From the NCBI GenBank assembly GCA_947168905.1, contig CAMVNR010000001.1, positions 1 through 64,000 of the forward strand: a stretch of DNA of 64,000 bases. The letters are read 5' to 3'. Of the stretch, positions 39,258 to 63,350 are shown piece by piece (within the stretch, counting starts at the first letter, position 1; the number at the start of each line of letters is the position of its first letter). The translations under genes and the position numbers were made by a program. Source of the DNA: an uncultured Lachnospiraceae bacterium. GTDB lineage: Bacteria > Bacillota > Clostridia > Lachnospirales > Lachnospiraceae. Below the pieces are notes generated by a model. The model saw only the letters and a program-made list of their open reading frames with translations, was not told the DNA's origin and searched no databases.

Positions 39258-41627
39258 TTACAGACCGAGCTGTGTCAGCATTTCCTTCATTTTCGCCGTC
39301 CAGACGTCATGTCCTTTCTTATTCAGGTGAATCCGGTCGATCCGGTACAGCGCCGGGTTGAAATACCTGCCGTCCGAGGTCCTTAAGCTTTCCGGCCCCT
39401 CATCCGTCAGCATCTCATCCGTCGCGTCCATAAAATACATCCTGTCGGTGGATTCGCACATTTCCTTCAGAAGCTCGTTGGTCTTCACCGTCGCGTCCCA
39501 GAACTGCGTCCGTCCGGGAAGCGGGAGGCCGGAGCAGACAATGAGCTTCGTTTCAGGCATATTATCCAGGAAGAGACTGTACATTTTCTTCTTGTTCTCC
39601 AGAATGGTCTCAAGGGGAATTCCGGAAGCGATATCATTCGAGCCCGTCTGGAAGAATACTGCAGCCGGCCGGTAAGGATACAGAAGCCGCGGCGCGTAGA
39701 GGATCATGTCGTCATCGATGCACCCGCCCATTCCGTGGTTCTGGGCTCTCCAGGGCTTCATGTCCTCCTCAAGGGAATACCAGAAGGTGATATTCGAGGG
39801 CCCGTAGAAGATGATGCTGCCCGGGTTCACCGGATACTGCTCCTCGATCATGCGGACAACACTTTCCTGTTCGGAAGGATCCCTTGTCCACCGGTAGCGC
39901 GGGCCGTCGGGATCAATATCGACGCCGAACTCCCGGACCTCCTGACGGTTTTTCCGGCGGAATTTCCCGCCCGCGATCATGAGGTCAATGAGCAGCTCCG
40001 TACGGTTCTCGTCCGTGATCAGGGACGACAGCGGCATTTTCTTCTCTTCATCCGAAAGCGCCGTAAAGTGTTTCCCGATTGCCTCGGAGAAATACGGCAT
40101 TCCGGCAAAGATGCCCACCGGGAAGGAGAGATGCGAAAGATCGCCGAAGGTTTGATAAACCCCGGAAAGCTTCTCAATCTCCGGCACATGGCGCTCTTCC
40201 ATCCGGAAATCGTCCGCTTCCCGGATCGACATCGTCAAGGGACTCTCCTTCGTAAACGGCGTCCACACAGGGAGCCCTTCGCCGTTCGGGTTTCCGGTTT
40301 TCGCAAAATTCGTCCAGATCTTCATCATCCGGCGGCTGAGCGCCTCTTCCTTCTCGCCCACCTCCCGGTGAAACTTTGAGAGTGTGTGGAATACGAAGAA
40401 CTGGTCGTCCCCGTGCGAGGCAAAGCCGGAATGCGGCATCGGATGGTCAAAGCTTGCCAGATAGACCGGTTTTTTCGGCTGCCCGGCCTGAAGCTCTGCC
40501 CAGGCAAGCTGTGCCGCCTTCATTTCATAAACCTCGCACCACTCGGCATATTTCATCGCCTCTTCATCCGTCGAAGGGTCCACCGTCGATCCGAAAATCT
40601 GCGTCCGTTCGCCGAAGACGTGATCGTTGAAATTCTCTACGGTAACCTTTTCTTTGACCGGCCAGCGGATTTCATTCGCCGTCGTTGAGAGAATGTAATC
40701 AAGATCCGCCTGTTCCCCGCGACGGACCATCTCATCCATTTCCGCGGGCAGCGCCCAGCCGTCTCCCGTGATATTGAACTGTTTGCGGAAGGATTCATAC
40801 AGGGCCTCAAGCTCAGATGCGGGAATCTGCCGCATTTCTTCCATGCTGTTCTTCCCGCAGTACCGGACGAATTCTTCGCCGCGCTTCTTCAGCGCGTGGT
40901 ATTCGAGGCTGTAGTTTGGATTGAGTCCGCCGGCGCTGTGGATAATCACATGCTGCACGAGCCCCGAGGAAAGCGGCGAGCAGGCAATGCCCTGGCAGGA
41001 CCTTCCGCCGCCGGAACAGCCGAAGATCGTCACATTGTCCGGATCACCGCCAAACGCCGCAATATTCTCCTTCACCCACCTCAGGGACAGGATCTGGTCC
41101 TGCAGGCCGTAGTTTCCCGAAGAATGGTGCTCATTCTCCTCCTCGAGCGCTGCATGTCCGAAATATCCGAAAACGCCCGTCCGGTAGTTGACCGTCACGA
41201 GGACAACACCGTACCGGCACAGCGTCTCGCCGTCGAAAATAATATCGTCCGAGGTCCCGCCCTGTAAGCCCCCGCCGTAGAACCAGACCATAACAGGAAG
41301 GCGCTCGTCCCCGCTGGCGGCCGGTGTCCAGACATTTAGGGAAAGGCAGTCCTCCGACATGCGAAGCGGTCTTGGCGGAACAGGGTTCTCTTTCAGCATT
41401 TTCTGGAAATACGGGCTGTCTGTATTGTCCCGCTGGAAGCAGCTGAAGCCAAAATCACTGCATTCTCTTACGCCCTCCCAGCCTTCCGCAGGGACCGGCG
41501 CATGCCAGCGAAGCTCTTTTTCGGCAGGCTTTGCATACGGAATTCCGAGAAAGCTTGTGATTCCGGGGGCGTTCGTTTCCTGGCCGCGGACCCGACCGGT
41601 CAGGATCGTTGTCTCAAGTATTGCCAT
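39258..41627 (-). CDS. Type-B carboxylesterase fused to an SGNH hydrolase
   Basis: A 789-residue bifunctional protein without a signal peptide. Residues 1-480 are a type-B carboxylesterase: EDCLSLNVW, VWFYGGGLQGG (oxyanion), nucleophile elbow FGCSGGG (Ser205; the usual GESAGG is changed on both sides of the Ser) and SHGDDQFFVF with the His. Residues about 575-789 are an SGNH domain: IIFYGPSNITFW (block I, GPSN in place of GDS), FFQTGSNDIASG (block III) and DRIHLNKKGHDVW (Asp and His). The fusion suggests two different ester bonds on one substrate. The start at 41627 follows AAAGGAG. It is the last gene of the minus-strand cluster before the terminator at 39177-39210. Confidence 0.88.
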   Translation of the reverse strand: MAILETTILTGRVRGQETNAPGITSFLGIPYAKPAEKELRWHAPVPAEGWEGVRECSDFGFSCFQRDNTDSPYFQKMLKENPVPPRPLRMSEDCLSLNVWTPAASGDERLPVMVWFYGGGLQGGTSDDIIFDGETLCRYGVVLVTVNYRTGVFGYFGHAALEEENEHHSSGNYGLQDQILSLRWVKENIAAFGGDPDNVTIFGCSGGGRSCQGIACSPLSSGLVQHVIIHSAGGLNPNYSLEYHALKKRGEEFVRYCGKNSMEEMRQIPASELEALYESFRKQFNITGDGWALPAEMDEMVRRGEQADLDYILSTTANEIRWPVKEKVTVENFNDHVFGERTQIFGSTVDPSTDEEAMKYAEWCEVYEMKAAQLAWAELQAGQPKKPVYLASFDHPMPHSGFASHGDDQFFVFHTLSKFHREVGEKEEALSRRMMKIWTNFAKTGNPNGEGLPVWTPFTKESPLTMSIREADDFRMEERHVPEIEKLSGVYQTFGDLSHLSFPVGIFAGMPYFSEAIGKHFTALSDEEKKMPLSSLITDENRTELLIDLMIAGGKFRRKNRQEVREFGVDIDPDGPRYRWTRDPSEQESVVRMIEEQYPVNPGSIIFYGPSNITFWYSLEEDMKPWRAQNHGMGGCIDDDMILYAPRLLYPYRPAAVFFQTGSNDIASGIPLETILENKKKMYSLFLDNMPETKLIVCSGLPLPGRTQFWDATVKTNELLKEMCESTDRMYFMDATDEMLTDEGPESLRTSDGRYFNPALYRIDRIHLNKKGHDVWTAKMKEMLTQLGL

Positions 41628-41658
41628 TGGTTTTCTCCTTTGATCTATAAACACGAAG

Positions 41659-41697
41659 CGGCGCCTGCAGCATCCGCATGAAATGCTCCAGGCGCCG
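41659..41697 (-). terminator. Strong hairpin between two esterase genes
   Basis: CGGCGCCTG (41659-41667) pairs with CAGGCGCCG (41689-41697), extended by an AGCAT/ATGCT inner helix. It lies just after the stop of the esterase at 41706. Only a weak T-rich tail follows on the minus strand, so it may be leaky. Confidence 0.55.
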
Positions 41698-41705
41698 TTA
41701 TTCTA

Positions 41706-42494
41706 TCAGGACAGCGCCCACACAATCGCAGGCTCCAGCCATTCGTTCCAGAATTTCCAGTTGTGAATCCCGGGCGAAGTGTGGAATTCATGCTTTACGC
41801 CCTGTTCTGTAAGGAAGGCGTCAAGTGCCCGGTTCGCTTCAATCAGGAAGTCTTCCGAGCCGCAGGCGAGGAAGAACTCCGGAAGCGGCCGTCCCGCTAA
41901 GATACGCTTCTTCACGAGGACTTCGGGACTTGCTTCTGTTTCAGGCGCATTCTTAAGATCTCCGAAAATGTGCTCGTAGTACGCCCGGTTTGCCACCTTA
42001 TTCCCCTCGTCCGTAATCTCCGGAAGGCCGTTCACAATCAGTGCGCTCGAAAGCCCGATCACCTTTTTGTAGCTGTCAAACTGCAGACCGGTATGAATTG
42101 CGCCGAAGCCGCCCATCGATAAACCGCCGATGATGCAGTTTTCGGGTGAAACGTCGAGCCCGAATGCGCGGGAAGCGTAGGCAAGAAGCTCCTTCCCGAC
42201 ATAGCTTGCGTACTGCTCGCCGGTGCCCTCAAGATCCAGGTAGAAGCTGTTTCGGCCGTTCGGCATCAGCACCGCCAGATTGTATTCCTGGGAAAGCTCG
42301 CGGATGCGGGATCCGGTCACCCAGTCCGCCGCGTTTCCGCTGTAGCCGTGCAGCAGCACCAGGACCTTCGCAGGACGCTTATAGTGCTCGTTCATCTCCG
42401 CCATAAACGGCGGGACGTCATTCGGCAGGACCGCATAGAGTTCTGTCTGCCCCGAAAGGGACTGAGAATAAAAATCAACATGTACCAGTGCCAT
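41706..42494 (-). CDS. PF00756-type esterase (tributyrin/feruloyl esterase group)
   Basis: A 262-residue cytosolic esterase. VLVLLHGYSGNAADW gives the oxyanion region, CIIGGLSMGGFGAIH the nucleophile Ser (GLSMGG), LACGSEDFL the Asp and TSPGIHNWKFWNEWL the His. Size and motifs match small Firmicutes acyl esterases of the esterase-D/tributyrin-esterase type. The start at 42494 follows GGAGG. It resembles the esterase at 58909-59718 in order and length, so the two are probably paralogues at opposite ends of the cluster. The 108-base gap upstream contains a TTGACA but no matching -10. Confidence 0.9.
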   Translation of the reverse strand: MALVHVDFYSQSLSGQTELYAVLPNDVPPFMAEMNEHYKRPAKVLVLLHGYSGNAADWVTGSRIRELSQEYNLAVLMPNGRNSFYLDLEGTGEQYASYVGKELLAYASRAFGLDVSPENCIIGGLSMGGFGAIHTGLQFDSYKKVIGLSSALIVNGLPEITDEGNKVANRAYYEHIFGDLKNAPETEASPEVLVKKRILAGRPLPEFFLACGSEDFLIEANRALDAFLTEQGVKHEFHTSPGIHNWKFWNEWLEPAIVWALS

Positions 42495-42602
42495 GGCATA
42501 TCCTCCTGTGTAAATGTTCTGTTCTGTGCGAAACACATTTCGTTTGTCAAATACGTCCGAAAAAGAGAACGCGGTCCTTCGCTGTCTGTAAGGGGAGCGC
42601 GG

Positions 42603-44105
42603 TCAGATTCTCAGGCACTTTGTCTCAGCGGTCACGACCGGCTGTCCGGGAAGTCCGCCTTTTACCTGCAGGACGGTGCAGCCGTCCCCGGAGAAAATGA
42701 AGCGGGTTTCGCGCTTCGAGTTGTTTTCCGGCCAGAGCTCCTCTAAAAGGAAGGTATCGTCCGATTCCCAGACGCCGTTTGCGAAACATTTTTCCGCGAA
42801 CTGCCAGGGGGAGCGGAAGCGGTTATAGCGGCGGGAGCCGTCCAGGGCAAACTCCACCGATAACGAAGTGTGGTCTGTGCTTTCCCAGAGGATTTCACCC
42901 TCCATCTCCGAGAACCGGATCGTAAAGCGCTCTGCCGGGTTTGCTTCGGGCGCATACATGCCGAGGCAATAGATGTCAAAGCTTCCCGACTCCACCTTGT
43001 AAGTCCCGGAGGCTGTCTCCTTCGAAGCCGCGTAGGGGCGGAACGAAGGCGCGGCGATCGCAAGACGCTTCAGCCGGTACTGAAGCTTCTTCTGCATCGC
43101 CTTCACCTCTTCAGTCTCCTCGATCGGAGCGTCCAAGACGCCCGGAAGCAGGAGCTCCCACAGCTTCGAGATGACCTTATTCGGCTCGGCGGAATTCTGG
43201 TTCATGGATACGATCATATCCTTGTCCGGAATCACAATCGAGAACTGGCCCGCTGCGCCGTCGGCGCGGTACGCGCCGGGATACGCGCACATCCACATCT
43301 GGTAGCCGTAGCCTGCGCAGCCTTCGAGATCGCCGCGTGCGCGCGCTCCGGTGTTTTCGTTGTCGATCTGCTTTGTCGTTGCAAGCTTTACATACTCTTC
43401 CGGGATCAGGCGCTCGCCGCCTGCGACTCCGCCGTCCTTGTAGAGCTTCATCAGCCGCAGGTTGTCCTCTGTCGAACTGACCGTCCGCCAGGCCCACATG
43501 TCCTGTCCGTCCGGCGCGATTCCGTGGAACACATTCTTCCCGTTGATGCCGATCTTCGGGAAGAGCTTCTCCTCCAGGTATTCGTACACCGTTTTCCCGG
43601 TCAGCTTTTCAATTACTTTGCCGAGGAAGGTGGAGCCGACGCTGTTGTACCAGAAATTCGTGCCCGGGCGGAATTTTAAGGGAGTGGCGATAAAGTTCTG
43701 CACCCAGTTTCCTTCCATCGTCGGGAACTCGCACATCCCCGAGCCCATCGTGAGCACATGGCGGATCGTCAGCTCCTCAAAATACGGCGAGGGGTTTTCC
43801 GGCACGAATTCAGGGAAAATATCATTTAAATGCGTGTCAAGCGTAAGAAGCCCTTCCTGGATCGCAATGGCGATCGCCGTGCCCATATAGGTTTTCGTAA
43901 GCGACGCGCACATGTGCGGAATGCCCGGCGCATAGGGTGCCCACCAGCCCTCCGCCGCGATTTTGTCATGACGCATGATCATGAAGCCGTGCATCTCTGT
44001 GAGATCCGTTTCCACAGCGTCAAGGAAATTCCAGACAGCCTCCGAGCGGATGCCCAGAGCCTCCGGGGATACGCGTTCAAATTCTTTACGGATGAATTTT
44101 TCCAT
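42603..44105 (-). CDS. Class-C beta-lactamase-like serine hydrolase (paralogue of 24813-26315)
   Basis: A 500-residue cytosolic serine hydrolase. SxxK is Ser68-Leu-Thr-Lys71, the Tyr motif is Y153-N-S, and a C-terminal domain follows from about residue 340. It shares EGWWAPYAPG, TKTY, DNLRLMKLYKDGG, YGYQMWMC and YRADGAAGQF with the last gene of the importer 1 operon. This indicates duplication and links the two importer loci functionally. The start at 44105 (MEKFIR) follows AGAGGGG. It lies 25 bases after the MFS gene and is probably co-transcribed with it. Confidence 0.86.
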   Translation of the reverse strand: MEKFIRKEFERVSPEALGIRSEAVWNFLDAVETDLTEMHGFMIMRHDKIAAEGWWAPYAPGIPHMCASLTKTYMGTAIAIAIQEGLLTLDTHLNDIFPEFVPENPSPYFEELTIRHVLTMGSGMCEFPTMEGNWVQNFIATPLKFRPGTNFWYNSVGSTFLGKVIEKLTGKTVYEYLEEKLFPKIGINGKNVFHGIAPDGQDMWAWRTVSSTEDNLRLMKLYKDGGVAGGERLIPEEYVKLATTKQIDNENTGARARGDLEGCAGYGYQMWMCAYPGAYRADGAAGQFSIVIPDKDMIVSMNQNSAEPNKVISKLWELLLPGVLDAPIEETEEVKAMQKKLQYRLKRLAIAAPSFRPYAASKETASGTYKVESGSFDIYCLGMYAPEANPAERFTIRFSEMEGEILWESTDHTSLSVEFALDGSRRYNRFRSPWQFAEKCFANGVWESDDTFLLEELWPENNSKRETRFIFSGDGCTVLQVKGGLPGQPVVTAETKCLRI

Positions 44106-44130
44106 TTTACCCCTCTTTCTATGAATAGAC

Positions 44131-45339
44131 TTATTTCTGAACTGCTGCTGTTTTCTTCCTGTCAATCAGAAGCTGAATTCCGAGAAGCAGGAGACCGCCG
44201 ACTGCAAGCACTCCGCCGAATCCGCAGAACATTCCCTGATAGCCGAACTCCTTGACAAAGAAGCTTCCGATGATCGGCGCGACCGCGTTTCCGACATTCT
44301 GTCCGATCATGACGGTCGAGGAAGCCACCCCGGAACGCTCCTTCGGGAGCTTTTTAACGGAATACGCCTGAATCGACGGCTGTCCGTTGCCCTGGCCAAG
44401 CGCCTTGAACACCGCTGCGGCGAGCATCATCCCAAGCGTCGACCCGATACCGACGAAGATCATCCCGAGCGCTGCGAAAACAAACGAAGGAATCAGGATG
44501 ACAAAGACGCCCTTCTTATCCAGAAGCTTGCCCGTAAACGGACGAATGACGATCAGGAAGATCGAATAGACCGTGAAGAAGACCGAAATATTCGCGATCT
44601 GCCGCTCATCCGCGATGATCGCAAGGTAGGTGCTGACCATGCCGTTTCCGGCGCTGAAAAGCGCTGCCATCAGCATGAAGCAGGTAAGCTCCGCCGCATA
44701 CAGATTCCGGAAGGAGAACTTTTTCTTCCCGGCACCGGCTGCGGGCTCCGGCTTCACATAGTGAAGCGGCAGAATGCAGGCGATGCAGACCAGCGGGAAG
44801 ATGCCCGCAATGAGGAATGTCAGCTGGAAGGAGCTGACTTCCACAAGCTTCAGGCCGATCGAGGGTCCCAAGGCCTGCGCTACAATCTGCGCAAGAGAAA
44901 TGAATCCGAGGCCTTCACCGGTCCTTTCCTTCGCGATAAAGGACGAAGCAAAGGCGATGTTGGTCACGCTGCAGACCGAGAAGAAAATCCCCGTCAAAAG
45001 CCGCATGATGATCAAAAGCGGAATATTCGTACAGACAGAATGCAGTACGAGGCAGATGCCGTAGCCCAGGTTTCCGAAGACCAGAATCCACTTCCGGCTG
45101 ATCTTGTCCGCAAGCATTCCCGCGAAGGGGCAGACGACCAGGGATACGAGAGACATCAAGCCTGCGACCGTCGAGGCAAGCGTCAGATCCGCCCCCAGCG
45201 AAAGCGCGTATTTCGCGACGAGCGGAACCGTCATCATACCCGCTACGCCGTTTAAAAGTGACATTGTTATCAGTAAAATAAATGTACCGTTCCAGAGCGG
45301 GACCTTTTTCCCCGCACCTGCTGCCGGCTGTGTGCTCAT
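44131..45339 (-). CDS. MFS transporter
   Basis: A 402-residue membrane protein with twelve predicted helices. The motif after helix 2 is GMLADKISRKWILVFGN (MFS motif A variant of GxLaDrxGrr), and the central loop between the halves carries KPEPAAGAGKKKFS. It most resembles drug/metabolite efflux or sugar-type MFS proteins, and direction cannot be told. Both the N-terminus (TQPAAGAGKK) and the central loop carry the same short PAAGAGKK peptide, an odd internal repeat. In this cluster it could export released acids or import a small substrate (inference). It follows the pseudo-esterase gene by 12 bases. Confidence 0.88.
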   Translation of the reverse strand: MSTQPAAGAGKKVPLWNGTFILLITMSLLNGVAGMMTVPLVAKYALSLGADLTLASTVAGLMSLVSLVVCPFAGMLADKISRKWILVFGNLGYGICLVLHSVCTNIPLLIIMRLLTGIFFSVCSVTNIAFASSFIAKERTGEGLGFISLAQIVAQALGPSIGLKLVEVSSFQLTFLIAGIFPLVCIACILPLHYVKPEPAAGAGKKKFSFRNLYAAELTCFMLMAALFSAGNGMVSTYLAIIADERQIANISVFFTVYSIFLIVIRPFTGKLLDKKGVFVILIPSFVFAALGMIFVGIGSTLGMMLAAAVFKALGQGNGQPSIQAYSVKKLPKERSGVASSTVMIGQNVGNAVAPIIGSFFVKEFGYQGMFCGFGGVLAVGGLLLLGIQLLIDRKKTAAVQK

Positions 45340-45351
45340 TCTTTTTCCCCC

Positions 45352-46215
45352 TTACAGCGCTTTTCTCTTCAGCGGAAGCATTTCGTCCAGCGCTTTCTGC
45401 AGATACTCGTTCCAGAGCTTAAAATCATGGTCGCCGCCCTCCACGAGAATAAATTCCAGGTTCAGCGGAAGCCTGCGCATTGCCTCAACATCCGCCTCGA
45501 CACGCTTGCGGATAAATTCCTCCGAGCCGAGAACAATCGTAAAATCAGGCATCCTGGTTCCGTTTTTCAGGTGACGCTCCGTCACGGCGCGAAGGTCGTA
45601 TTCGGAGCCGATAATCTCCTCCGACGGTCCGAAAGAAGTCCGGTACAGCGGGAACTGGTATTTGAAATGGTCGCTCTCGAGTTCCTCCGCGAGCGTTTCC
45701 GGACAGAAGGTCATTCCGATGCCGCCCGACATGTCGATACACGCCGCATACTTTTCCGGATGGTTGACCGCCATGCCAAGCGCCGCATTTCCGCCCATCG
45801 CGAAGCCCATGATAAAGTTGTCCTCACGCGCGGGCGACGACGGGAACAGGGTCTGAATCACCACCGGAAGCTCCTCGCAGACAAAATCCATATAACGGAC
45901 GCCGTAATGCGTGTTGATACCGAAGCTGTTCGTAATATCCGGCGTCACAAGCATCACATGATTCCGCTCTGCCGCCTCCTCGACATTGGAATAGCGGTAC
46001 GGAAGGGTGTCGTCATCCCCGCCGCCGTGGATCAGGTAAACCGTCTGGAATTTCATCCCTGTGCGGTACACCGCCTTTTCGTCCCTTCGGTCGACCGGAT
46101 TCGCATTTCCATGGAAGAAATCCGTTTCACAGCGGTAGTTGTTGGTCGGAATAACCACCGTCACGTCCACATAATGTCCGAGAAGCTCGGAGCGGTAATT
46201 GAATCTCAGTTTCAT
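45352..46215 (-). CDS. PF00756-type esterase homologue lacking the catalytic Ser
   Basis: A 287-residue protein of the putative-esterase fold. TVYLIHGGGDDD is the oxyanion region, VLGSEEFI the acid position and VEGGDHDFKLWNEYL the His, but the nucleophile elbow reads FIMGFAMGG with Ala139 (GCG codon) where family members have Ser (GLSMGG). One base change (TCG to GCG) would account for it. The rest of the fold is intact and the frame open. It is therefore probably a non-catalytic binding or regulatory homologue, or a recently inactivated enzyme. It has its own extended -10 promoter and GGGAGG site, and it precedes the MFS gene. Confidence 0.85.
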   Translation of the reverse strand: MKLRFNYRSELLGHYVDVTVVIPTNNYRCETDFFHGNANPVDRRDEKAVYRTGMKFQTVYLIHGGGDDDTLPYRYSNVEEAAERNHVMLVTPDITNSFGINTHYGVRYMDFVCEELPVVIQTLFPSSPAREDNFIMGFAMGGNAALGMAVNHPEKYAACIDMSGGIGMTFCPETLAEELESDHFKYQFPLYRTSFGPSEEIIGSEYDLRAVTERHLKNGTRMPDFTIVLGSEEFIRKRVEADVEAMRRLPLNLEFILVEGGDHDFKLWNEYLQKALDEMLPLKRKAL

Positions 46216-46323: not shown

Positions 46324-47193
46324 TTATGACAGCACCAGTGTTTCGCCGGGACGGACTGTATAGATATTGTTAAAGCCCCTTCTGAAGCTCACCGCAAACG
46401 CCGTCGGATTATAGACCATCTCGCCCTCGGCGCCGTATTCGAGCGCGCGGAACGCGTTCACATAATCCACGATTTCAATGTTGGTCGCGAACCAGATGCC
46501 TTCGCGGTGCGCATCCATAAACTGCAGAAGCTCTTCGATTTTCTCCCAGGTTCCGTCCTTTTCGAATTCATAGGAATGGCCCCAGACATAGAAGAGCTTT
46601 TTCATAAAGCCGAAGCCGCCGTTTCCGCAGAAATCCTCCGCAAGTGAAAGAAGCTTCTCGTCATTGTGGTGCGCCGTGCCCTTCCACTCCATAAAGTCCT
46701 GCGGAATGTCAAACTTCCCGGTCGTGTCCACGACACGGGCGTAATGGTAACCGGCGTCTCTTAAGACCTGCTTGACCTTCTCATTATACTGTCCGAAGGG
46801 ATAGGCATAGCCCCGGACCATTTTCCCCGTGATCCGCTCCAGATTGGCGCGGTCTTCGATCGTCTCATACAGAAGATGTGCCGTTCCGACCCCTGTCGGG
46901 CTGGCATGGGTGAGACCGTGGCCGGCAATCTCATGACCGGCATAAAGGAGCGGCACTTCCGCTTCGTCCACTACGCTGATGTCGAGATCCGGGAAAGGTC
47001 CCGACTGATTTTTTCTCTCCAGGCCGAAGAAGCCGGAATTCAGATTGAATGTCGCTTTTATATGATAGCGGTTCAGAAGCTCGATGAAGCGCCGGTCATG
47101 AACCGTCCCGTCGTCATAGCTCATCGTAAAGGCCTTCGTATTCCCGCCCGGGAATATGATATCGTCAAGAAAACCGCTTGTCCTCTGTTTCAT
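46324..47193 (-). CDS. Polysaccharide deacetylase-like (NodB/CE4) protein
   Basis: A 289-residue NodB-fold protein with no signal peptide. Motif 1 is MSYDDGTVHD (catalytic and metal Asp pair), motif 2 HGLTH (metal His pair) and motif 3 YAYPFGQYN (R/Y-x-P-x-G type). The N-terminal ATFNLNSGFF strand and C-terminal NIEIVDYVNA are as expected. CE4 enzymes remove N- or O-acetyl groups with a divalent metal. A cytosolic location is unusual for the family but matches every other esterase here. It follows the CE1-like gene after a gap holding a strong A/T hairpin. Confidence 0.86.
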   Translation of the reverse strand: MKQRTSGFLDDIIFPGGNTKAFTMSYDDGTVHDRRFIELLNRYHIKATFNLNSGFFGLERKNQSGPFPDLDISVVDEAEVPLLYAGHEIAGHGLTHASPTGVGTAHLLYETIEDRANLERITGKMVRGYAYPFGQYNEKVKQVLRDAGYHYARVVDTTGKFDIPQDFMEWKGTAHHNDEKLLSLAEDFCGNGGFGFMKKLFYVWGHSYEFEKDGTWEKIEELLQFMDAHREGIWFATNIEIVDYVNAFRALEYGAEGEMVYNPTAFAVSFRRGFNNIYTVRPGETLVLS

Positions 47194-47277: not shown

Positions 47278-48147
47278 TCAGAACAGGTAGGGCAGGTAGT
47301 TCCAGACGTGATGGTACACCTCCTCATAGGCGTGCACCGCGTCTTCCTTGACCTCAAAATGCAGATTGCCCTTTTCGGGATCTTCGGAATACTCGAAGTA
47401 TTCCGGATATTTTTCCTTCATCGCCTGAAGCTGCGGGTCAAGGTTGTCAAAGCCCGCATCCTTCGAGCCGGTTCCGACGAAAAGCCGGAAGTCGTTCTTT
47501 GTAAAGCCGAGCGATTTTACCTTCTCCGCGAGAATATCCGCGGTCCGATCCGGCGCAAGCCTTCCGCCCATCGGCTGCACTGCCCAGCAGTCGCCGGACA
47601 TCGGAATGAAGTCCGCTACAATGTCAAGATGGGAAAGGAACACATACCAGGTGGTCGCGCCGCCCATCGAGAAGCCGCCGAATGCGCGGTGCTTCCGGGA
47701 CGCCTTCAGGCTTTCTTCCGTCACATTGCGTTCGGCATAGGTGTGATAGCGGCTTTCAATCAGCGGTACGAGATCTTCAGTGAATTCCTGCTGGAAGTGC
47801 TTCACGTTACTATCTTCCCAGGAGGCGTCGATTCCCTGAATCCTGGCCTGGGAGGGCGTCAGACTGTAGAAGGTCGGGAACACCACGATAAAGGGCTCGG
47901 CGAGCTTCTCATTGAAGGCGCGGTCCAGCGCGTTCTTGATCTGCGAGCAGTCGGTCCAGGCGTCCGGATTTCCGCCGCCGCCGTGCATCAGGTAAAGAAT
48001 ATTATAGGGCTTTGTATCGTCATAGCCATAGGGCAGGTAGACGAGCGCATATTTATACCAGGGCGTCCCCCCGAGATCCTTCGTCATATAATCGACCCGG
48101 ACGAGGCGTCCTCTGTAGTCCACATCCTTCCAGACATGAAGATTCAT
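47278..48147 (-). CDS. CE1/PF00756 feruloyl-esterase-like enzyme
   Basis: A 289-residue cytosolic esterase like the feruloyl-esterase domains of XynZ/XynY and the related DUF3327-type group. ALVYLPYGYDD, NILYLMHGGGGNPDAW (oxyanion), AFGGFSMGGATTW (Ser in GFSMGG), FVGTGSKDAGF (Asp) and the His in HAYEEVYHHVWNYL are all present. Three ATG codons occur in a row; the third (48147) has the best spacing to GGAGG, and the first is only one base from it. It starts 13 bases after the end of esterase-stalk paralogue 1. Confidence 0.9.
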   Translation of the reverse strand: MNLHVWKDVDYRGRLVRVDYMTKDLGGTPWYKYALVYLPYGYDDTKPYNILYLMHGGGGNPDAWTDCSQIKNALDRAFNEKLAEPFIVVFPTFYSLTPSQARIQGIDASWEDSNVKHFQQEFTEDLVPLIESRYHTYAERNVTEESLKASRKHRAFGGFSMGGATTWYVFLSHLDIVADFIPMSGDCWAVQPMGGRLAPDRTADILAEKVKSLGFTKNDFRLFVGTGSKDAGFDNLDPQLQAMKEKYPEYFEYSEDPEKGNLHFEVKEDAVHAYEEVYHHVWNYLPYLF

Positions 48148-48160
48148 CATCATCCCTCCT

Positions 48161-49694: not shown

Positions 49695-50864
49695 TTATTC
49701 TTCCGAAAGCGCCTCATATACGAGGTCTCTCAGCGTCGGATGAATTTCTGCATAGGATTTGATCATTCCGAGCACCTGCTGGCCGTAGTAGATCGAAATA
49801 TGGTTAAAGGGATCGATCAGGGCGTATGCGCCGGCTGCGCCGTCCCAGCCGAATTCGCCGACCGGAGACTTCGCTCCCTCCGGGCCGATATAGACGCGCA
49901 TGCCAAGGCCGTAGCCGTAGCCAATGCGCATTCCCTGCTGGAACTCAAGCACCTGCTCCGGGGTCAGCCTGTTTTTCGTAAATTCAAGGACGGATTCTTC
50001 CTTCAGGATTCTGTTCCCGGTCGCGCCGACACCGCCGCAGGCGAGGGCATCGAGAAGCTTGCTGTACTCGTCGACCGAAGTCGTTACGCCCGCGCCGCCG
50101 CTCTCGTAATTCTCCGACAGCCGGAACGCGTTTCCTTCCTGGCGCGTCATCTCCTGCGTGACCATGTTAAGACTGTACTGCGCCGCCAGCCGGTAGGCTT
50201 CGGACTTCGGCACCTGGTACCAGATTTCCTTCATCCCGAGGGGTTCAAAGATATTCTTCTTCATATATTCGCCGAAGGTCATCCCTGAGACGACCTCGAC
50301 AACTCCCGCCAGCACGTCATGCGCCAGAGAGTACATATAATGAGTATTCGGCTCGTAGAGGAGGGGAGTCTTTGCAATCGCCTTCATAAATTCGCGCGTC
50401 GACCCCTGACGGTTGGTCTTCTCCTGAAGTTCCCTGATCGGCTCGGAATTGATATCATAGCCAAGTCCGGCGGTCATGGACATCAGATTCCAGATTTTGA
50501 TCGGATTGACGGCCTTTTTCGTCGCGGTTTCCCTCGTCGGCATCACCATCGGCCAGCCGAATTTGAAGTCCGGATCATAGTACATTTCCGCAAATTCCGG
50601 CAGGAATTTCGTCAGCTCGTCATCGAGGCTGATTTCGCCCCGCTCCACAAGCTGCATCACGGCGGTCATCGTCGCGATTTTCGACATCGAGTAAATATCA
50701 TACAGATCCGTCTGGGAAACCGGTTTCGTTTTCGCGTAGTCATTGTATCCGGTCATATGCCTGTAAATCGTTTCATGGTCCTTCTGGACCTTGCAGTCGA
50801 CGGCGGGAACGCCGTACTTTTCCTCAAGGGAATCAAGGTATACGGTTACTTTTTCAAAATTCAT
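49695..50864 (-). CDS. EstB-like serine hydrolase (class-C beta-lactamase fold)
   Basis: A 389-residue hydrolase. The SxxK motif is Ser59-Met-Ser-Lys62 (IYSMSK), the Tyr motif is YSLAHD, and the third motif region reads GEFGWDGAAG, the usual WGG/HTG equivalent of esterase-type members. No signal peptide. It is shorter than the other two serine hydrolases in the window and belongs to a different subgroup, closer to EstB/PBP4* esterases. The start at 50864 follows GGAGGTG. It has its own promoter (50886-50914) and interrupts the array of esterase-stalk genes between paralogues 1 and 2. Confidence 0.88.
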   Translation of the reverse strand: MNFEKVTVYLDSLEEKYGVPAVDCKVQKDHETIYRHMTGYNDYAKTKPVSQTDLYDIYSMSKIATMTAVMQLVERGEISLDDELTKFLPEFAEMYYDPDFKFGWPMVMPTRETATKKAVNPIKIWNLMSMTAGLGYDINSEPIRELQEKTNRQGSTREFMKAIAKTPLLYEPNTHYMYSLAHDVLAGVVEVVSGMTFGEYMKKNIFEPLGMKEIWYQVPKSEAYRLAAQYSLNMVTQEMTRQEGNAFRLSENYESGGAGVTTSVDEYSKLLDALACGGVGATGNRILKEESVLEFTKNRLTPEQVLEFQQGMRIGYGYGLGMRVYIGPEGAKSPVGEFGWDGAAGAYALIDPFNHISIYYGQQVLGMIKSYAEIHPTLRDLVYEALSEE

Positions 50865-50885
50865 GCGAGTCACCTCCATGGTTAA

Positions 50886-57294: not shown

Positions 57295-58842
57295 TCAGAA
57301 CCTTCGCGGCTTCGGATTTCCGTGCACCTTCACATAATCGTAAATGTATTGATATTTTTCGAATTCACTTTCCGGGAACATGGAGATTTCGTTCCCGAGC
57401 GTCACGACATCGAAATCCTTCTCATAGGACTTCCATTCGGGAAGCCCTTCACCGTTCGGATCGCCGGATGCGGCGTAATTTGCCCAGTAGCCCTGGATCA
57501 CATCCATAAAACGGTAATCTTCTTCAACCCACTTATAGTCGAGGAAGGGGTTGTAGGAGCCCTTGTCCACACGCCCGAAAAGATAGGGCATTTCCGCACA
57601 GTGAGGGCAGCCGTCCCGGTGTCCTCTTTCGTCCTCGTTTTCCTTATTCATGTGCCAGATGAAAGCTTTCCTTCCGTACTCTTTGCAGAGCTGCCCGATC
57701 CGGATCGCACCGGCGAGCATGAAATCGGACATAATCGTCGTCAGCATTTTCGCGGCCTCGGAGGGCGTTCCCGCGGGATACCAGGCCTTCATCTTCTCTG
57801 CGTTGTCCGGGAAAGTTTCTTCAATGTACTGATTGTACACGTCTAAAGAGACCCCGTTCGGCGCAGCGGGAAATTCCTGCGCGCAGGATCCCATCATCAC
57901 TTCGAAGTCGTTGAATTTCCCGGCATCCATCCACTTTTCGTAGTCTTCGGGGAGCAGTTTTCCGTCGATACAGAAGGAGAATCCGCTGAAATAGTCGGTA
58001 TTCGCGTTATACAGATCAAAGAGCTCCCAGGCGTCCATCTTCCGAAGGTCGGCGATCGACTCGACACCGATTTTCTTCATGAAATCCACGCCCTTCTGCT
58101 CCATGACTTCCCGCGGCTGGGGCTTCATAAAGCCCCAGTATACGACGCCGCTTTCAATCGAAACGCGTTTTACGAGGCCCTTCATGAGGGGAGATGCGAG
58201 CAGGATTCCTGTCGATCTCGCGCCGCCGGACTGTCCGGCGACCGTGATATTGTCCGGGTCCCCGCCGAATACGGCGATATTTTTCTTAATCCATTCGCAG
58301 GCCTTCACCATGTCGAAGAACGCATAGTTTCCGGAGCTTCCGTTTCCCTCTTCCGTGAGGTCCGGGTGCGCGAAGAAGCCGTAGAAACCGAGCCGGTAAT
58401 TAATCGTCACGACAACGAGATCCTTCCGCTTTGCGAGGCCTTCGCCCGCGCAGACGCATTCAACGCCGGAGCCCGCGATCATTCCGCCGCCGTGAATCCA
58501 TACAAATACAGGAAGCCTGTCTTCCGCGCTCTTCGCAGGGGACCAGACATTCAGATACAGGCAGTCTTCCTGATACTGCGACGGCATCAGAAGCTGTGGA
58601 ATTCCGTGTACGTTTGCGACGAGGTTTTCCTCTTCCTGAACGGGCTGGATCGCGCCAGGCCCGTACTGGGTGGCTCTTCTCACCCCGCGCCAGGTATAGG
58701 GATCCTGCGGATGGCGGAAGCGAAGCTCTCCGACCGGCGGAGCCGCGTAGGGAATCCCCTTAAATACCTTCAGATTTTCATCAATATATCCCTGAAGCCA
58801 GCCCTCGCTGACTTTTACTTTCGCATTTTCAAAATCACTCAT
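57295..58842 (-). CDS. Type-B carboxylesterase, cytosolic
   Basis: A 515-residue carboxylesterase (PF00135 type). VFKGIPYAAPPVGELRF, EDCLYLNVW, VWIHGGGMIAGSG (oxyanion), VAGQSGGARSTG (nucleophile Ser; GQSGGA in place of GESAGG) and GCPHCAEMPYLFG (His) are in the normal order and at the normal length. Such enzymes have a deep gorge that accepts acyl or aryl esters. No signal peptide. It lies 66 bases after the PF00756 esterase at 58909 and shares the importer 2 operon. Its type-B module resembles the first half of the fusion protein at 39258-41627. Confidence 0.9.
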   Translation of the reverse strand: MSDFENAKVKVSEGWLQGYIDENLKVFKGIPYAAPPVGELRFRHPQDPYTWRGVRRATQYGPGAIQPVQEEENLVANVHGIPQLLMPSQYQEDCLYLNVWSPAKSAEDRLPVFVWIHGGGMIAGSGVECVCAGEGLAKRKDLVVVTINYRLGFYGFFAHPDLTEEGNGSSGNYAFFDMVKACEWIKKNIAVFGGDPDNITVAGQSGGARSTGILLASPLMKGLVKRVSIESGVVYWGFMKPQPREVMEQKGVDFMKKIGVESIADLRKMDAWELFDLYNANTDYFSGFSFCIDGKLLPEDYEKWMDAGKFNDFEVMMGSCAQEFPAAPNGVSLDVYNQYIEETFPDNAEKMKAWYPAGTPSEAAKMLTTIMSDFMLAGAIRIGQLCKEYGRKAFIWHMNKENEDERGHRDGCPHCAEMPYLFGRVDKGSYNPFLDYKWVEEDYRFMDVIQGYWANYAASGDPNGEGLPEWKSYEKDFDVVTLGNEISMFPESEFEKYQYIYDYVKVHGNPKPRRF

Positions 58843-58908: not shown

Positions 58909-59718
58909 TCAGGGCTTTCCCGCTAAAAGGAAACGGATGCATTCTTCAAAATGGTCCCGCCAGGCTGTAAAGTCATGCGGTCCTTCGACTTCATGATACT
59001 CCATCGGCGCTTCCTGTTCCCGAAGGAACTCAACGAAAGCCCGGTCTCTTTCCAGCAGGAAATCCTGCTTTCCGCAGATAATATATAAAGGCGTCAGCCT
59101 TTCGCCGTTTTTCTTCAGTTCCTTCAGAAGATAACGCGGGTTATTCACGCTTGTCCCGATCTTCTTCGGATCGCCGAAGGTCTGCCGGTAATAGTAATAA
59201 TCCGCCATCGGATTCCTGTCCTCCGGCGTCATGTTTTCCATCCCGTCCGTCAGGATCGCCGGAGACATCGCAAAGGCGCGCTCGAATTTCTCCGGATAGT
59301 AATAGGCTGCGCGGATCGCGCCGAAGCCGCCCATCGAACATCCGCCGACGAAATTATGCTCTCTCTCGAGAGGAAGACCGAGCGAGCGATGCAGGTACTC
59401 CGGTAGCTCTTCAAAGATATAGGAACCGAAACGGTTTGTATTGGCCTCCCCGTCCACATAAAAGCTTAAATCCCCGTAAGGCATGACAATCGCGATATTG
59501 TAGCGCTCGGAGAAATCCCGCACATAGGTCATATTGGCCCATTCCGAATTGTCGTTGCTGTAGCCGTGGAGAAGATACAGCACCTTCATCGGGCGCTCGT
59601 AATGCTCGATCCCTGCCCGCAGCTTCTCGTATTCATTCTTGTCATTCGGCAGTTCGACTTTAACGTTGGAAACTCTGGAATTGACTTCGGAACGAAAAGA
59701 TATGTCATAAAAAGCCAT
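58909..59718 (-). CDS. PF00756-type esterase, first gene after importer 2
   Basis: A 269-residue cytosolic esterase. VLYLLHGYSNDNSEW (oxyanion), FVGGCSMGGFGAIR (nucleophile Ser in GCSMGG; Cys precedes it), IICGKQDFL (Asp) and VEGPHDFTAWRDH (His). It is similar in size and order to the enzyme at 41706-42494. It follows the binding-protein gene after a hairpin of eleven base pairs, so it should be made at a lower level from the same transcript. Its position suggests it acts early on the imported compound (inference). Confidence 0.9.
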   Translation of the reverse strand: MAFYDISFRSEVNSRVSNVKVELPNDKNEYEKLRAGIEHYERPMKVLYLLHGYSNDNSEWANMTYVRDFSERYNIAIVMPYGDLSFYVDGEANTNRFGSYIFEELPEYLHRSLGLPLEREHNFVGGCSMGGFGAIRAAYYYPEKFERAFAMSPAILTDGMENMTPEDRNPMADYYYYRQTFGDPKKIGTSVNNPRYLLKELKKNGERLTPLYIICGKQDFLLERDRAFVEFLREQEAPMEYHEVEGPHDFTAWRDHFEECIRFLLAGKP

Positions 59719-59819: not shown

Positions 59820-61397
59820 TTATTTCGATGCAAGCCATGCATCAAGCTGTTTCTGCTTCTCGGCGATGATTTCGTCAATGCCGGCGTTTTTCAGCTCCTG
59901 CTGGAACACAGGAAGCACTTCGTCGATATCAACTTCGCCGTTCATGATCGGATTGTAATACTGTGCAATGACGTTTGCGCAGGCTGCGTACTGGTCCGCT
60001 ACCGGAGACAGGTCGCAGGTGAAGCCGAGCGCCTTCGAGGGAATTGCAGCGGCATTGTCGGCAACCATAAGATCATTTGCTTCCTTCAGCTGGTAATCCC
60101 AGGTCGGAGCAAGGAAGTCGTTGGGGTTCACATAGGAGTAGCCTACCGACCATCCTGCGGAGGTCGCGTCGGTTGCGCCGTTGACGTAGCAGGCCTGGCC
60201 GTCGTCGTTGATGCCGTAGGTGAGACCCAGAACGCCGTCGGTGAAGATCGTAGCGATTTCAGGGTCGGTGTACAGGCAGTTCAGTACACGCATCGCGGCT
60301 TCCTTATCCTTGCAGAAGGAGGTTACATGCCACAGGTAGGTGTTGATGTTGCCGGTGGTGAGAAGTCTCTCGCCGATCTCGCAGCCGGTGATGTTTGCGC
60401 CGTACTGCTGGGAAGCGTTGGCTTCGTGAATGGTATTGGTCATGTTGTAGCCGTAGCCGGGCGTACCGTAAGTGATTCTGGTCTGGAAAGACAGCAGGGT
60501 CGGGCTCTGGTTCGACATGGCATCCGGAGAGATGATTTCTTTTTCCTTCCAGATCTTAACGTTCTCAAGGAAGTTTAAGAAATAATCGGATTCATAGTAG
60601 TTTTCGACTGTGGTACTGTTGACGGGATCCATCAGGCAGCCAAGGTAATTGGTATCGCCGAGGTAGTCGATGCTCTTCGGTACCCAGTAGGGTTCAGTTG
60701 CGCCGGGGATGAAGTACTTGTCGGGGTTGTTCTCTTTCATAACGACAAGCGCTTTGGTCAGATCGTCAACGGTATGAACCTGGGAAAGGTCAACGCCTTC
60801 AGCAACTTCTTCGGTGCAAAGGTAGATGTTCGGAGAAGACCATGCGGTGAAGCTCGGAATTCCGTAGAGCGTTCCGTTGATGCGGCCGCAGTCCAGAACT
60901 TCCTGATAAGGTGCGTACAGTTCTTTGATGCCCTGTCCGGAAGTCTCCAGAAGCTCATCCAGAGGAGCAAGCTGGCCATTGGCAACCAGCTGGCCGAGAG
61001 ATGTGTACCAGAAGGAGCTCAGGATATCCAGAGAATCCTCGCCGCCCGTTAAGAGCAGGTTCAGCTGTGTCACCATATCACCGAAAGGAACCCAAACGAA
61101 TTCGACTTCAGCCTGTGCCTTTTCGCGCAGCTTTTCGTTTAAGGCAGCCTCAACCTCTGCCGCATGTGTCGGCGGCTCGCCGGTGAAGGTGCTCATGTTC
61201 ATACGAAGCTTCGGATAGCTTCCGTCGGATTCCGGAGCCGGAGTCGCATCATCTGCTTTTTCTGTGCCGGCTTCCTGGGTGCCCGCTTCCTCAGTCTTCG
61301 GTGCTTCGGTGGTGGTGTCGTTTCCGGCCGGCTTTGTGCAGGCTGCAAGAGACAGAACCATTACAAGCGCAAGAACGAGTGCCAGTAATTTCTTCAT
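59820..61397 (-). CDS. Extracellular sugar-binding lipoprotein (importer 2)
   Basis: A 525-residue binding protein. The signal peptide ends in LSLAAC with lipidated Cys20, nearly identical to that of importer 1, and is followed by a Thr/Glu/Ala-rich linker of about 40 residues and the two-lobed domain (PKLRMNMSTFTGEPPT start, ELKNAGIDEIIAEKQKQLDAWLAS end). The C-terminal tail closely matches that of the importer 1 protein (AGIDDIVADYQAQLDAWL). Gene order differs from importer 1: here the binding protein comes last, after both permeases. Confidence 0.92.
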   Translation of the reverse strand: MKKLLALVLALVMVLSLAACTKPAGNDTTTEAPKTEEAGTQEAGTEKADDATPAPESDGSYPKLRMNMSTFTGEPPTHAAEVEAALNEKLREKAQAEVEFVWVPFGDMVTQLNLLLTGGEDSLDILSSFWYTSLGQLVANGQLAPLDELLETSGQGIKELYAPYQEVLDCGRINGTLYGIPSFTAWSSPNIYLCTEEVAEGVDLSQVHTVDDLTKALVVMKENNPDKYFIPGATEPYWVPKSIDYLGDTNYLGCLMDPVNSTTVENYYESDYFLNFLENVKIWKEKEIISPDAMSNQSPTLLSFQTRITYGTPGYGYNMTNTIHEANASQQYGANITGCEIGERLLTTGNINTYLWHVTSFCKDKEAAMRVLNCLYTDPEIATIFTDGVLGLTYGINDDGQACYVNGATDATSAGWSVGYSYVNPNDFLAPTWDYQLKEANDLMVADNAAAIPSKALGFTCDLSPVADQYAACANVIAQYYNPIMNGEVDIDEVLPVFQQELKNAGIDEIIAEKQKQLDAWLASK

Positions 61398-61520: not shown

Positions 61521-62408
61521 TTATCCCTTTACAGATCCTAAGGTAACGCCCTTGACAAAGGACTTCTGGAAGAACGGATACACGATCAGCACCGGCAGTA
61601 CGCCGACAACCGCAAGCGCCATCCGGATACCGACCGACGGGATCTGCGATGCGTCGACATTGATGCCCTTCGACACCTGCTGCTGCAGCACGGTAATGCT
61701 GTCGAGAACGCGCTTCATGTAGTTCTGGATGCCCAGAAGGTCGGTTCTCTTCTGAATGTAGTAAACACCGTTGGTCCAGTTGTTCCAGTAAGCGATGAAG
61801 GTCATCAGGCCAAGCGTGCCCATAATCGGCTTGCAGAGCGGGATAACGATGCGGATCAGGCAGGTCAGTTCGCTCGCGCCGTCAATCCGGCCGGCTTCGA
61901 TGATTTCATCGGAGATATTCGAAGTAATATAGGTACGCATCATGATGACGTGGAAGGCGTTCATCAGCATGCTCGGAATGATCATTCCCCACAGGGTGTC
62001 CTTGATGTTTAAAAGTCTCGTATACACGATGTAGGTCGGAACAAGGCCGCCGTTGAAGAGCATCGTGAAGAAAAGGAAAAAGGAAATGATATTCCTTCCC
62101 GGAAGGTCTTTCCTCGAGAGCGGATAAGCGTAAAAGGTCGTCATCACAAGAGAGGTGGTCACGCCGATTGCCGCAATGATGACGCTCATCAGGTAGGCGC
62201 GCGCCACGCCGTCCGATACCGCTGCGAGATATCTGTACGTGTCAAAGGTAATCTGTTTCGGAATCAGTGAATAACCCGAATCAAGGAGCACCGACTCCGG
62301 CGTGAAGGAGCTCGCGATCAGAAGCCAGAACGGAATGATGCAGGCTACGATCAGGAGAAACACGAAGACATACTGAACTACGATAAACGCTTTATTATTT
62401 GTAATCAT
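61521..62408 (-). CDS. LplC/YtcP-type sugar ABC permease (importer 2)
   Basis: A 295-residue permease with six helices, the EAA loop IIEAGRIDGASELTCLIRIVIPLCKPIM and the C-terminal VYPFFQKSFVKGVTLGSVKG tail typical of the group. It pairs with the LplB-like protein encoded 18 bases upstream. The AGR in place of AAR in the EAA loop is a small departure from importer 1. The 123-base gap to the binding-protein gene has no strong hairpin. Confidence 0.93.
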   Translation of the reverse strand: MITNNKAFIVVQYVFVFLLIVACIIPFWLLIASSFTPESVLLDSGYSLIPKQITFDTYRYLAAVSDGVARAYLMSVIIAAIGVTTSLVMTTFYAYPLSRKDLPGRNIISFFLFFTMLFNGGLVPTYIVYTRLLNIKDTLWGMIIPSMLMNAFHVIMMRTYITSNISDEIIEAGRIDGASELTCLIRIVIPLCKPIMGTLGLMTFIAYWNNWTNGVYYIQKRTDLLGIQNYMKRVLDSITVLQQQVSKGINVDASQIPSVGIRMALAVVGVLPVLIVYPFFQKSFVKGVTLGSVKG

Positions 62409-62426
62409 CTTCTTTCCTCCCTCCTC

Positions 62427-63350
62427 TTAGAACAGTGCGCTGTCCTTATCGATCTTCGAAACGATCGCGTTGGACGTTACCACAAGGATAAATCCGAGAA
62501 CCGACTGGAAGAATCCTGCAGCCGAAGAACGGCCGATATTATTCTGTTCCAGAAGAGCGCGGAACACAAAGGTGTCAATGGTCTGCGTTGTCTTGTACAG
62601 AAGGCCGGAATGCATCGGGACCTGGTAGAAAAGGCCGAAGTCCGAATAGCAGATACGGCCGATCGCAAGGATCAGCAGGATGATGATCGTGCCTTTCATG
62701 CAGGGAAGCGTAACGTGGCGGATCTGTTTCCAGGTGCCTGCGCCGTCCACGACAGCCGCTTCATAGAAGGTCTTGTCGATACCAATCAGCGTTGAATAAT
62801 ACAGGATTGAGGAATAGCCGAAGCTCATCCACAGGTAAACGATCGTCAGAATGAAGGGCCATGGCTTCGGCTCGTTGTACCAGTTGATGCCTTTGCCGCC
62901 GAGCGGCTTGATGATCGTATTATTGATAAAGCCGTTCGTGGGATTCAGGAACGCATATACGATGTAGGTTACGATAATGATGGATAAAAGATACGGAACA
63001 AGAATGATCACCTGGCTGAAATTCTTGAAATACTTGTTTTTGATCGTATCCATCGCAATTGCCGTCACAAAGCCCAGCAGGTTTCCGAGAATAATAAACA
63101 CCACGTTATAAAGGATGGTATTCCGGAACATGATAAACGCGTCGTTTGTGGCAAACAGATAGGTAAAATTGGAAAGTCCTGTCCAGGGACTCTTCAGGAT
63201 GCCGATCGAGTAATCCACCTTTTTAAAAGCAATCAAAAGTCCGAACAGCGGAATGTAATTGTTGATGATCAGGTAGACGGTTCCCGGAATCAGCATCAGA
63301 TACAGCGGCCAGTATCTCAGGACACGCTTCAGCGATTTCTTTTTCTTCAT
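62427..63350 (-). CDS. LplB-type sugar ABC permease (importer 2)
   Basis: A 307-residue permease. It has the standard start (LMLIPGTVYLIINNYIPLFGLLIAFKK), six helices, the EAA loop YEAAVVDGAGTWKQIRHVTLPCM and the standard end (DTFVFRALLEQNNIGRSSAAGFFQSVLGF). First gene of the importer 2 operon, with a good sigma-A promoter about 90 bases upstream. No ATPase gene is near, as is usual for this family; the ATPase at 26337 is the obvious candidate. Confidence 0.93.
   Translation of the reverse strand: MKKKKSLKRVLRYWPLYLMLIPGTVYLIINNYIPLFGLLIAFKKVDYSIGILKSPWTGLSNFTYLFATNDAFIMFRNTILYNVVFIILGNLLGFVTAIAMDTIKNKYFKNFSQVIILVPYLLSIIIVTYIVYAFLNPTNGFINNTIIKPLGGKGINWYNEPKPWPFILTIVYLWMSFGYSSILYYSTLIGIDKTFYEAAVVDGAGTWKQIRHVTLPCMKGTIIILLILAIGRICYSDFGLFYQVPMHSGLLYKTTQTIDTFVFRALLEQNNIGRSSAAGFFQSVLGFILVVTSNAIVSKIDKDSALF

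Follow-up and report, generated by a model that had tools for sequence, protein, structure and literature searches.

The window analyzed here, the first 64,000 nucleotides (nt) of a 68,506-base contig from an uncultured Lachnospiraceae bacterium (GCA_947168905.1; 2.63-Mb genome, 95% complete), carries a 24-kb locus (positions 39258 to 63350) in which an ATP-binding cassette (ABC) importer is followed on the same strand by an array of esterase-like genes. With slightly better than even confidence, we propose that the locus serves the catabolism of small, multiply acylated glycosides, which would be imported, deacylated in the cytosol, and cleaved by phosphorolysis, sucrose esters being the most likely substrates.

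Gene content and cellular location

Open reading frames (ORFs) combined with Pfam and NCBIfam scans gave exactly the inventory claimed in a sequence-only reading of this DNA. Running from 63350 to 39258, 18 consecutive minus-strand genes encode one ABC importer without its ATPase, one major facilitator superfamily (MFS) transporter, and 14 hydrolase-fold proteins (Table 1), and the scans detected no glycosidase or polysaccharide lyase among them. Based on Pfam, NCBIfam, and structure, the hydrolases fall into PF00756/carbohydrate esterase family 1 (CE1; four genes), the type-B carboxylesterase family PF00135 (two), the serine-beta-lactamase fold PF00144 (two), CE4 (one), and a polyhydroxybutyrate (PHB)-depolymerase-like family (five). 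The two PF00144 proteins score 17.8 (42603-44165) and 52.7 (49695-50879) against the class C beta-lactamase model NF033085, short of its cut-off of 415. Intergenic gaps are at most 123 nt, and three pairs of genes overlap. A promoter scan of the locus performed no better than on shuffled sequences, and terminator-like sites were in mild excess with no tie to gene ends.

Export was assessed by N-terminal hydrophobicity (15-residue Kyte-Doolittle average, threshold 2.0) rather than SignalP, with the solute-binding lipoproteins as a positive control. The maximum was ≤0.95 in all 14 hydrolases versus 3.05 in the solute-binding protein SBP525. Among relatives, the threshold was exceeded by 1 of 113 PHB-like, 1 of 86 CE1, 0 of 26 beta-lactamase-fold, and 0 of 14 CE4 proteins, versus 29 of 33 solute-binding proteins. 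The control thus works, and the claimed lack of signal peptides holds for the 14 hydrolases and for nearly all of their relatives. These results support a cytosolic location of the hydrolases, where they are predicted to be active.

Gut Lachnospiraceae carry Gram-positive polysaccharide utilization loci, for example the loci of Roseburia for acetylated mannan and xylan. The locus described here shares with them an ABC importer with a solute-binding lipoprotein, regulators, several esterases, and a one-strand layout. Unlike them, it has no glycoside hydrolase, and its 14 hydrolase-fold genes, none with a signal peptide, outnumber everything else. We class it as a carbohydrate-utilization locus that has the transport and regulatory genes of a polysaccharide utilization locus and lacks the glycosidase that defines one.

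The importer is of the CUT1 LplABC type, with a PF12010 lipoprotein and two PF00528 permeases. It resembles LplABC/YtePQR-type importers in these components and in having no ATPase of its own, and differs from them in being a locus-specific subtype tied to esterases. The missing ATPase, which the sequence-only reading had treated as noteworthy, proved ordinary: PF12010-type importers commonly share an MsmX-like ATPase, and a stand-alone UgpC/MsmX-type ATPase (488 bits, above the curated cut-off) is encoded on another contig of the genome (C24) and is the predicted partner.

Conservation in other genomes

Two other species of the same genus carry the locus, with 71 to 93% identity for most genes: RUG11805 (G004), in nearly the same gene order spread over several contigs, and RGIG2826 (G012, from goat omasum), in rearranged form. 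The PHB family is present in 6 of 397 genomes of a family-wide sample, and a further scan found 62 named loci that encode its ∼500-amino-acid (aa) members, from Lachnospiraceae, Butyrivibrio, Gemmiger, Mediterraneibacter, Herbinix, Paenibacillus, Cohnella (Paenibacillaceae), Anaerolineae, and others. Gene content was counted over the 52 loci of at least 12 kb. CE1 genes occur in 45 of these, a homologue of importer permease A or B (≥45% identity) in 38, two or more PHB copies in 36, a PF00144 homologue (≥40% identity) in 33, an MFS homologue in 26, a histidine kinase/response regulator pair in 23 (also kept in RUG11805), and a CE4 homologue in 13, with a median of seven hydrolase genes per locus. 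A Pfam scan of 107 leftover neighbor proteins found an unrelated mix and no recurrent glycosidase, with a single GH42 among the 25 commonest families listed. We also observed a 372-aa alpha/beta hydrolase (cl10; weakly PF00326/PETase-like) in 24 of the 52 loci (e.g., L072, 14078-15196), which was not detected in the window locus.

The cluster is thus conserved in other species, genera, and phyla. The sequence-only reading had named two findings that would overturn it, signal peptides on most of the esterases and a cluster confined to one genome; because the hydrolases lack signal peptides and the cluster is conserved elsewhere, neither was found. The many esterase families that it emphasized also have a background, namely, a genus-wide expansion of carboxylesterases. 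Many of the better genomes of the window's genus encode from 13 to at least 20 type-B carboxylesterases, versus 0 or 1 in the other Lachnospiraceae genera sampled. The genome studied here has about 20 PF00135 genes in 2.6 Mb and further esterase clusters on contigs C7, C5, C103, C73, and C81.

This expansion, together with the clusters on other contigs, would also fit a loose collection of esterases, built up in a genus rich in such enzymes, that serves general detoxification or the scavenging of plant esters and forms no single pathway. However, the same combination and the same importer are found in other genera and phyla, the spacing is tight and operon-like, and the other Lachnospiraceae genera sampled lack the PF00135 expansion. 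We consider such a loose set rather unlikely. Since the locus recurs in other lineages, it appears to be a unit and not a mere sample of an esterase-rich genome.

A GH13_18 phosphorylase in related loci

By tblastn over the 62 loci, a GH13_18 gene lies within 10 kb in 34 and is the sole recurring enzyme for a sugar core; the window locus has no such gene. Judged by its motif, the L104 protein among these 34 is a canonical sucrose phosphorylase. The gene typically sits 10 to 129 nt after the permease B gene and 12 to 147 nt before an esterase gene, and in Paenibacillus oralis, another Paenibacillaceae genome, and Anaerobacterium it follows a PHB gene by 0 to 24 nt. Assuming about two such genes per 3.5-Mb genome, a Poisson estimate predicts fewer than 1 of 62 loci by chance, a figure that serves as a guide only, as the loci are not independent.

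The encoded protein passes TIGR03852 (599 bits versus a cut-off of 334) and, like the known sucrose and sucrose 6F-phosphate phosphorylases (PMC7178133, PMC6720575), belongs to GH13_18, aligning full-length with solved members. Its clade is present in 23 of 29 PHB-carrying genomes searched, although in one of them the reading frame is broken. Proteins above the TIGR03852 cut-off occur in 24 of the 29 versus 23 of 250 Lachnospiraceae genomes (Fisher 4e-17; the groups differ in taxonomy). The single match among the 250 that fits the clade by score and place is in a PHB genome, and a reverse search of 392 genomes of the order did not recover the clade, the matches being ≤53% identical and canonical where the motif was readable. 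Canonical sucrose phosphorylases of the same genomes are mostly in non-esterase contexts. GH13_18 genes of 40 to 50% identity elsewhere in the relatives were rejected as members of the system, as most have ordinary sucrose contexts and canonical motifs, although a few have CE1, CE2, beta-lactamase-fold, or MATE homologues nearby.

In most members of the clade, the acceptor loop A is K-x-(A/F)-(R/K)-x-Y-Q or near it. The signatures of characterized enzymes are N(L/V)D(I/L/V)YQ for sucrose phosphorylases (PMC7178133), GFDVHQ or KXXYYQ for sucrose 6F-phosphate phosphorylases (PMC7178133, PMC6720575), and VGAIYQ for glucosylglycerol phosphorylases, whose enzyme also belongs to GH13_18 (PMC7178133). 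The clade loop matches none of the signatures in these two papers, and the clade (39 rows) separates from the characterized groups in a tree. Unlike the known GH13_18 phosphorylases, the relatives' enzyme has its own loop A motif, is found in an esterase and importer context, and is absent from the window's genus. Because this clade is linked to the locus in relatives, the substrate probably has an alpha-glucoside core, with sucrose the obvious candidate.

Glucosylglycerol phosphorylase, as a known member of GH13_18 (PMC7178133), would also suit glycolipid substrates such as alpha-glucosyl-diacylglycerol, the deacylation of which would yield alpha-glucosylglycerol for phosphorolysis. Loop A of the clade lacks the VGAIYQ signature, however, and two acyl groups would hardly call for up to 14 hydrolases. 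ABC importers, moreover, do not typically carry long-chain glycolipids, and we regard this explanation as improbable.

In the genome studied here, the sole GH13_18 protein detected is encoded on the same contig, more than 34 kb from the locus (3229-4893). Its nearest solved structure is that of I. coccineus SPP (6S9U, 573 bits), it scores just under the TIGR03852 cut-off (324 versus 334.4 bits), and its loop KNMYYQ fits the KXXYYQ signature, which likens it to strict sucrose 6F-phosphate phosphorylases. We rejected it as the phosphorylase of the locus based on this type and its distance from the esterases. The sister genome RGIG2826 (G456) encodes a 50% identical, non-clade GH13_18 enzyme elsewhere.

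The PHB-depolymerase-like esterases

Pfam alone gives no or weak matches to the PHB-like proteins, which were placed by NCBIfam models NF050058 and TIGR01840 and by AlphaFold. They remain below the curated cut-offs of both models (52.4 versus 107.85 for TIGR01840; 76.1 versus 150 for NF050058). In the model of copy E (predicted local distance difference test [pLDDT], 93), a fold search matched residues 42 to 317 to acetylxylan esterase B (Z 24.5), a promiscuous PHB depolymerase (Z 23.6 to 23.9), and feruloyl esterases (Z ∼22). Ser178 and His294 are invariant across 71 PHB-like sequences, and the GxSxG and His motifs are kept in all six copies of the contig, the sixth lying beyond the window. 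The proteins thus share with PHB depolymerase-family enzymes and CE1 acetylxylan and feruloyl esterases (PDB 8daj, 9j07, and 8iy8) the same alpha/beta-hydrolase domain (Z 22 to 24.5), GxSxG, and His. Unlike those families, they have an extra C-terminal domain, which resembles PF07833 in two copies, no signal peptide, scores below the family cut-offs, and six divergent copies.

The other five copies are 47 to 58% identical to copy E. All six occupy separate places in the tree, each grouping with relatives from other species or genera, and are therefore old paralogues rather than fresh tandem duplicates. This old divergence suggests different specificities. A second PHB-depolymerase-like family (∼550 aa, with an extra N-terminal half) was observed in related loci (L065, 7536-9194; L067; L072; L105; L109) and not in the window locus.

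The family-level similarity to NF050058 and TIGR01840 and the fold match to 8daj would be expected if the enzymes degraded hydroxyalkanoate oligomers or other polyesters, as true PHB depolymerases do. Scores under both cut-offs, the lack of secretion, and the context of a sugar importer and a sugar phosphorylase make this very improbable.

The structural matches bear equally on a different proposal, namely, that the locus takes up and de-esterifies acetylated or feruloylated oligosaccharides from hemicellulose or pectin, with glycosidases encoded elsewhere. The closest structures to the PHB-like fold are acetylxylan and feruloyl esterases, CE2-, CE4-, and CE6-like genes are nearby, and PF12010/LplABC-type importers are known for plant oligosaccharides. 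Against these points, the leftover genes of related loci hold no recurrent glycosidase, and the sugar enzyme that does recur is related to sucrose phosphorylase, with no action on hemicellulose known for its family. We judge hemicellulose or pectin oligosaccharides to be unlikely substrates, albeit ones to be taken seriously.

A conserved CE1-fold protein without a nucleophile

In CE1_287 (45352-46215), Ala139 replaces the serine of GxSxG. The sequence-only reading had counted this protein among the esterases, although it has no nucleophile Ser. The substitution is conserved: in 20 sequences of this type (orthologues 42 to 85% identical), the Ala, the MGG after it, and His263 do not vary. Orthologues occur beside apparently active esterases in Lachnospiraceae, Gemmiger, Paenibacillus, and Anaerobacterium (L108, L095, L086, and others). 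A family-wide search found nine genomes with the type (>370 bits), all with Ala, and every one checked among the next matches (<203 bits) has Ser. The PHB family is present in five of the nine genomes versus 1 of 388 others (Fisher 9e-9, assuming that both 397-genome samples are identical). The model of CE1_287 (pLDDT, 91.5) has the fold of FphF/EstA-type esterases (PDB 6vh9, 4rgy, and 2uz0), from which the protein differs by Ala in place of the nucleophile Ser in every orthologue examined. It may be either a binding or regulatory pseudo-enzyme or an enzyme of other chemistry.

Proposed function

Taken together, we favor the following route for acylated glycosides. The PF12010-type lipoprotein and the two permeases would import the intact ester, with energy from a shared MsmX-like ATPase. 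A set of serine esterases, most of them intact (the six divergent PHB-like copies, CE1 enzymes, type-B carboxylesterases, and beta-lactamase-fold and SGNH hydrolases), and the CE4 deacetylase would then remove distinct acyl groups from distinct positions. The freed alpha-glucoside core, most likely sucrose or partly acylated sucrose, would be split by the GH13_18 phosphorylase, as gene context in relatives suggests. The freed acids might leave via the MFS transporter, which is a guess, and the divergent two-component system probably senses the substrate. Import and intracellular deacylation of small esterified sugars, as proposed in the sequence-only reading, remain the best fit to the lack of signal peptides, the conserved importer subtype, and the placement of GH13_18 genes between importer and esterases; overall, that proposal is partly supported.

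Several observations weigh against this route. Neither the genome studied here nor its two sister species have the GH13_18 clade, which is also missing from three or more other PHB genomes, so that sucrose as the core in the window's genus is extrapolated from relatives. The clade has moderate tree support (87/75), and because its loop lacks N(L/V)D(I/L/V)YQ, the substrate need not be sucrose. The related loci are partly linked by descent or transfer, and their counts are not independent. One "esterase," CE1_287, has no nucleophile, the roles of enzymes and transporters are all predicted from sequence, and importer specificity cannot be read from it.

Acylated sucroses and phenylpropanoid sucrose esters are plant products, and many are defensive or bioactive. 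Our literature searches on the utilization of acyl-sucroses or sucrose esters by bacteria returned nothing relevant, with no genes assigned in rumen, gut, or soil. A more ambitious claim, which we advance tentatively and hold to be doubtful as a whole, is that this is the first bacterial locus recognized as dedicated to acyl-sucroses from plants or to comparable polyacylated alpha-glucosides, combining intact import, regioselective cytosolic deacylation, cleavage by a GH13_18 enzyme of new specificity, and CE1_287 as a binding or non-hydrolytic partner.

Flanking genes

The locus had been taken to end at 63350, which overlooked what follows on the contig (63579-68447): a histidine kinase, an AraC-type response regulator, and the sixth PHB-like copy. 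On the other side, a homologue of the flanking SASA/CE6-like gene directly follows the GH13_18 gene in Anaerolineae-type loci. Beyond it, a second importer is grouped with a two-component system of its own, an ATPase, and a PF00144 protein (24813-36080). Lachnospiraceae bacterium NK3A20 (L080) has homologues of this set together with a PHB copy, and the system may therefore exceed 24 kb. An ORF at 23595-24767 (minus strand) was rejected as part of the locus, as it has no family and lies opposite another ORF.

Farther away, window positions 7320-18333 (minus strand) encode additional hydrolases, namely, CocE/NonD-like (965 aa), GDSL (330 aa), S9-like (406 aa), CE2-like (386 aa), and lp_1002 arylesterase-like (350 aa) proteins. 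At 12451-14535 is an Old-yellow-enzyme/BaiCD-like Fe-S flavoenzyme (393.5 bits to BaiCD; cut-off, 825), a possible ene-reductase that could act on cinnamic acids freed from phenylpropanoid esters. This gut bacterium also encodes a serpin (PF00079, 259 bits; 695-2104) whose N-terminus has a membrane-like segment.

Table 1. Genes of the esterase locus and its surroundings (window positions unless marked as contig positions)
Feature	Position	Strand	Remarks
Sixth PHB-like copy	contig 66912-68447	-	Near contig end, outside window
Sensor histidine kinase	63579-64000, on to contig position 65294	+	Divergent to operon
PermA307, ABC importer permease A	62427-63350	-	PF00528
PermB295, ABC importer permease B	61521-62408	-	PF00528
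SBP525, solute-binding lipoprotein	59820-61397	-	PF01547 + PF12010; lipoprotein-like N-terminus
CE1_269, CE1-type esterase	58909-59718	-	PF00756, GCSMG
COE515, type-B carboxylesterase	57295-58842	-	PF00135
PHB_E, PHB-depolymerase-like esterase copy E, 518 aa	55631-57187	-	Catalytic domain ∼42-317, extra C-terminal domain
PHB_D, PHB-depolymerase-like esterase copy D, 494 aa	54122-55606	-	
PHB_C, PHB-depolymerase-like esterase copy C, 512 aa	52503-54041	-	
PHB_B, PHB-depolymerase-like esterase copy B	50981-52588	-	TTG start unsure; true start probably near 52510
BLac394, serine-beta-lactamase-fold esterase	49695-50879	-	PF00144, SMSK
PHB_A, PHB-depolymerase-like esterase copy A, 518 aa	48161-49717	-	
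CE1_291, CE1-type esterase	47278-48153	-	PF00756, GFSMG
CE4_289, CE4-type deacetylase	46324-47193	-	PF01522
CE1_287, CE1-fold protein without nucleophile	45352-46215	-	PF00756, GFAMG, Ala139
MFS402, MFS transporter	44131-45339	-	PF07690
BLac520, serine-beta-lactamase-fold protein	42603-44165	-	PF00144, SLTK; TTG start unsure
CE1_276, CE1-type esterase	41706-42536	-	PF00756, GLSMG
COE_SGNH798, fused type-B carboxylesterase + SGNH/GDSL hydrolase, 798 aa	39258-41654	-	PF00135 + GDSL
BD-FAE-like alpha/beta hydrolase, flanking, opposite strand	37941-39152	+	20.1 bits, cut-off 26.8; membership uncertain
SASA/CE6-like acetylesterase, flanking	36131-37702	-	
Second histidine kinase	34341-36080	-	Homologue next to PHB copy in L080
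Second AraC-type response regulator	32782-34344	-	
SBP540, second solute-binding lipoprotein	30282-31904	-	PF12010
Second importer permease pair	28297-30189 (29227-30189 + 28297-29214)	-	
UgpC-like ABC ATPase adjoining second importer	26337-27530	-	Possible partner; 321.6 bits, cut-off 432
BLac500, serine-beta-lactamase-fold protein	24813-26315	-	PF00144
IcSPP-like GH13_18 protein	3229-4893	-	Sole one detected in genome; KNMYYQ loop A; same contig

Significance

If the proposed function is true, an importer, esterases, and a sugar step for acyl-sucrose breakdown would be named at once, in a host that is a rumen-type gut bacterium. The PHB-like esterases would provide a marker gene family for metagenomes, and the locus would offer a set of natural deacylases with possible regioselectivity. 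The analysis also brings out two subjects for biochemistry, an uncharacterized GH13_18 clade and a conserved "dead" esterase, and the carriers include cultured organisms, such as Mediterraneibacter massiliensis and soil Paenibacillus.

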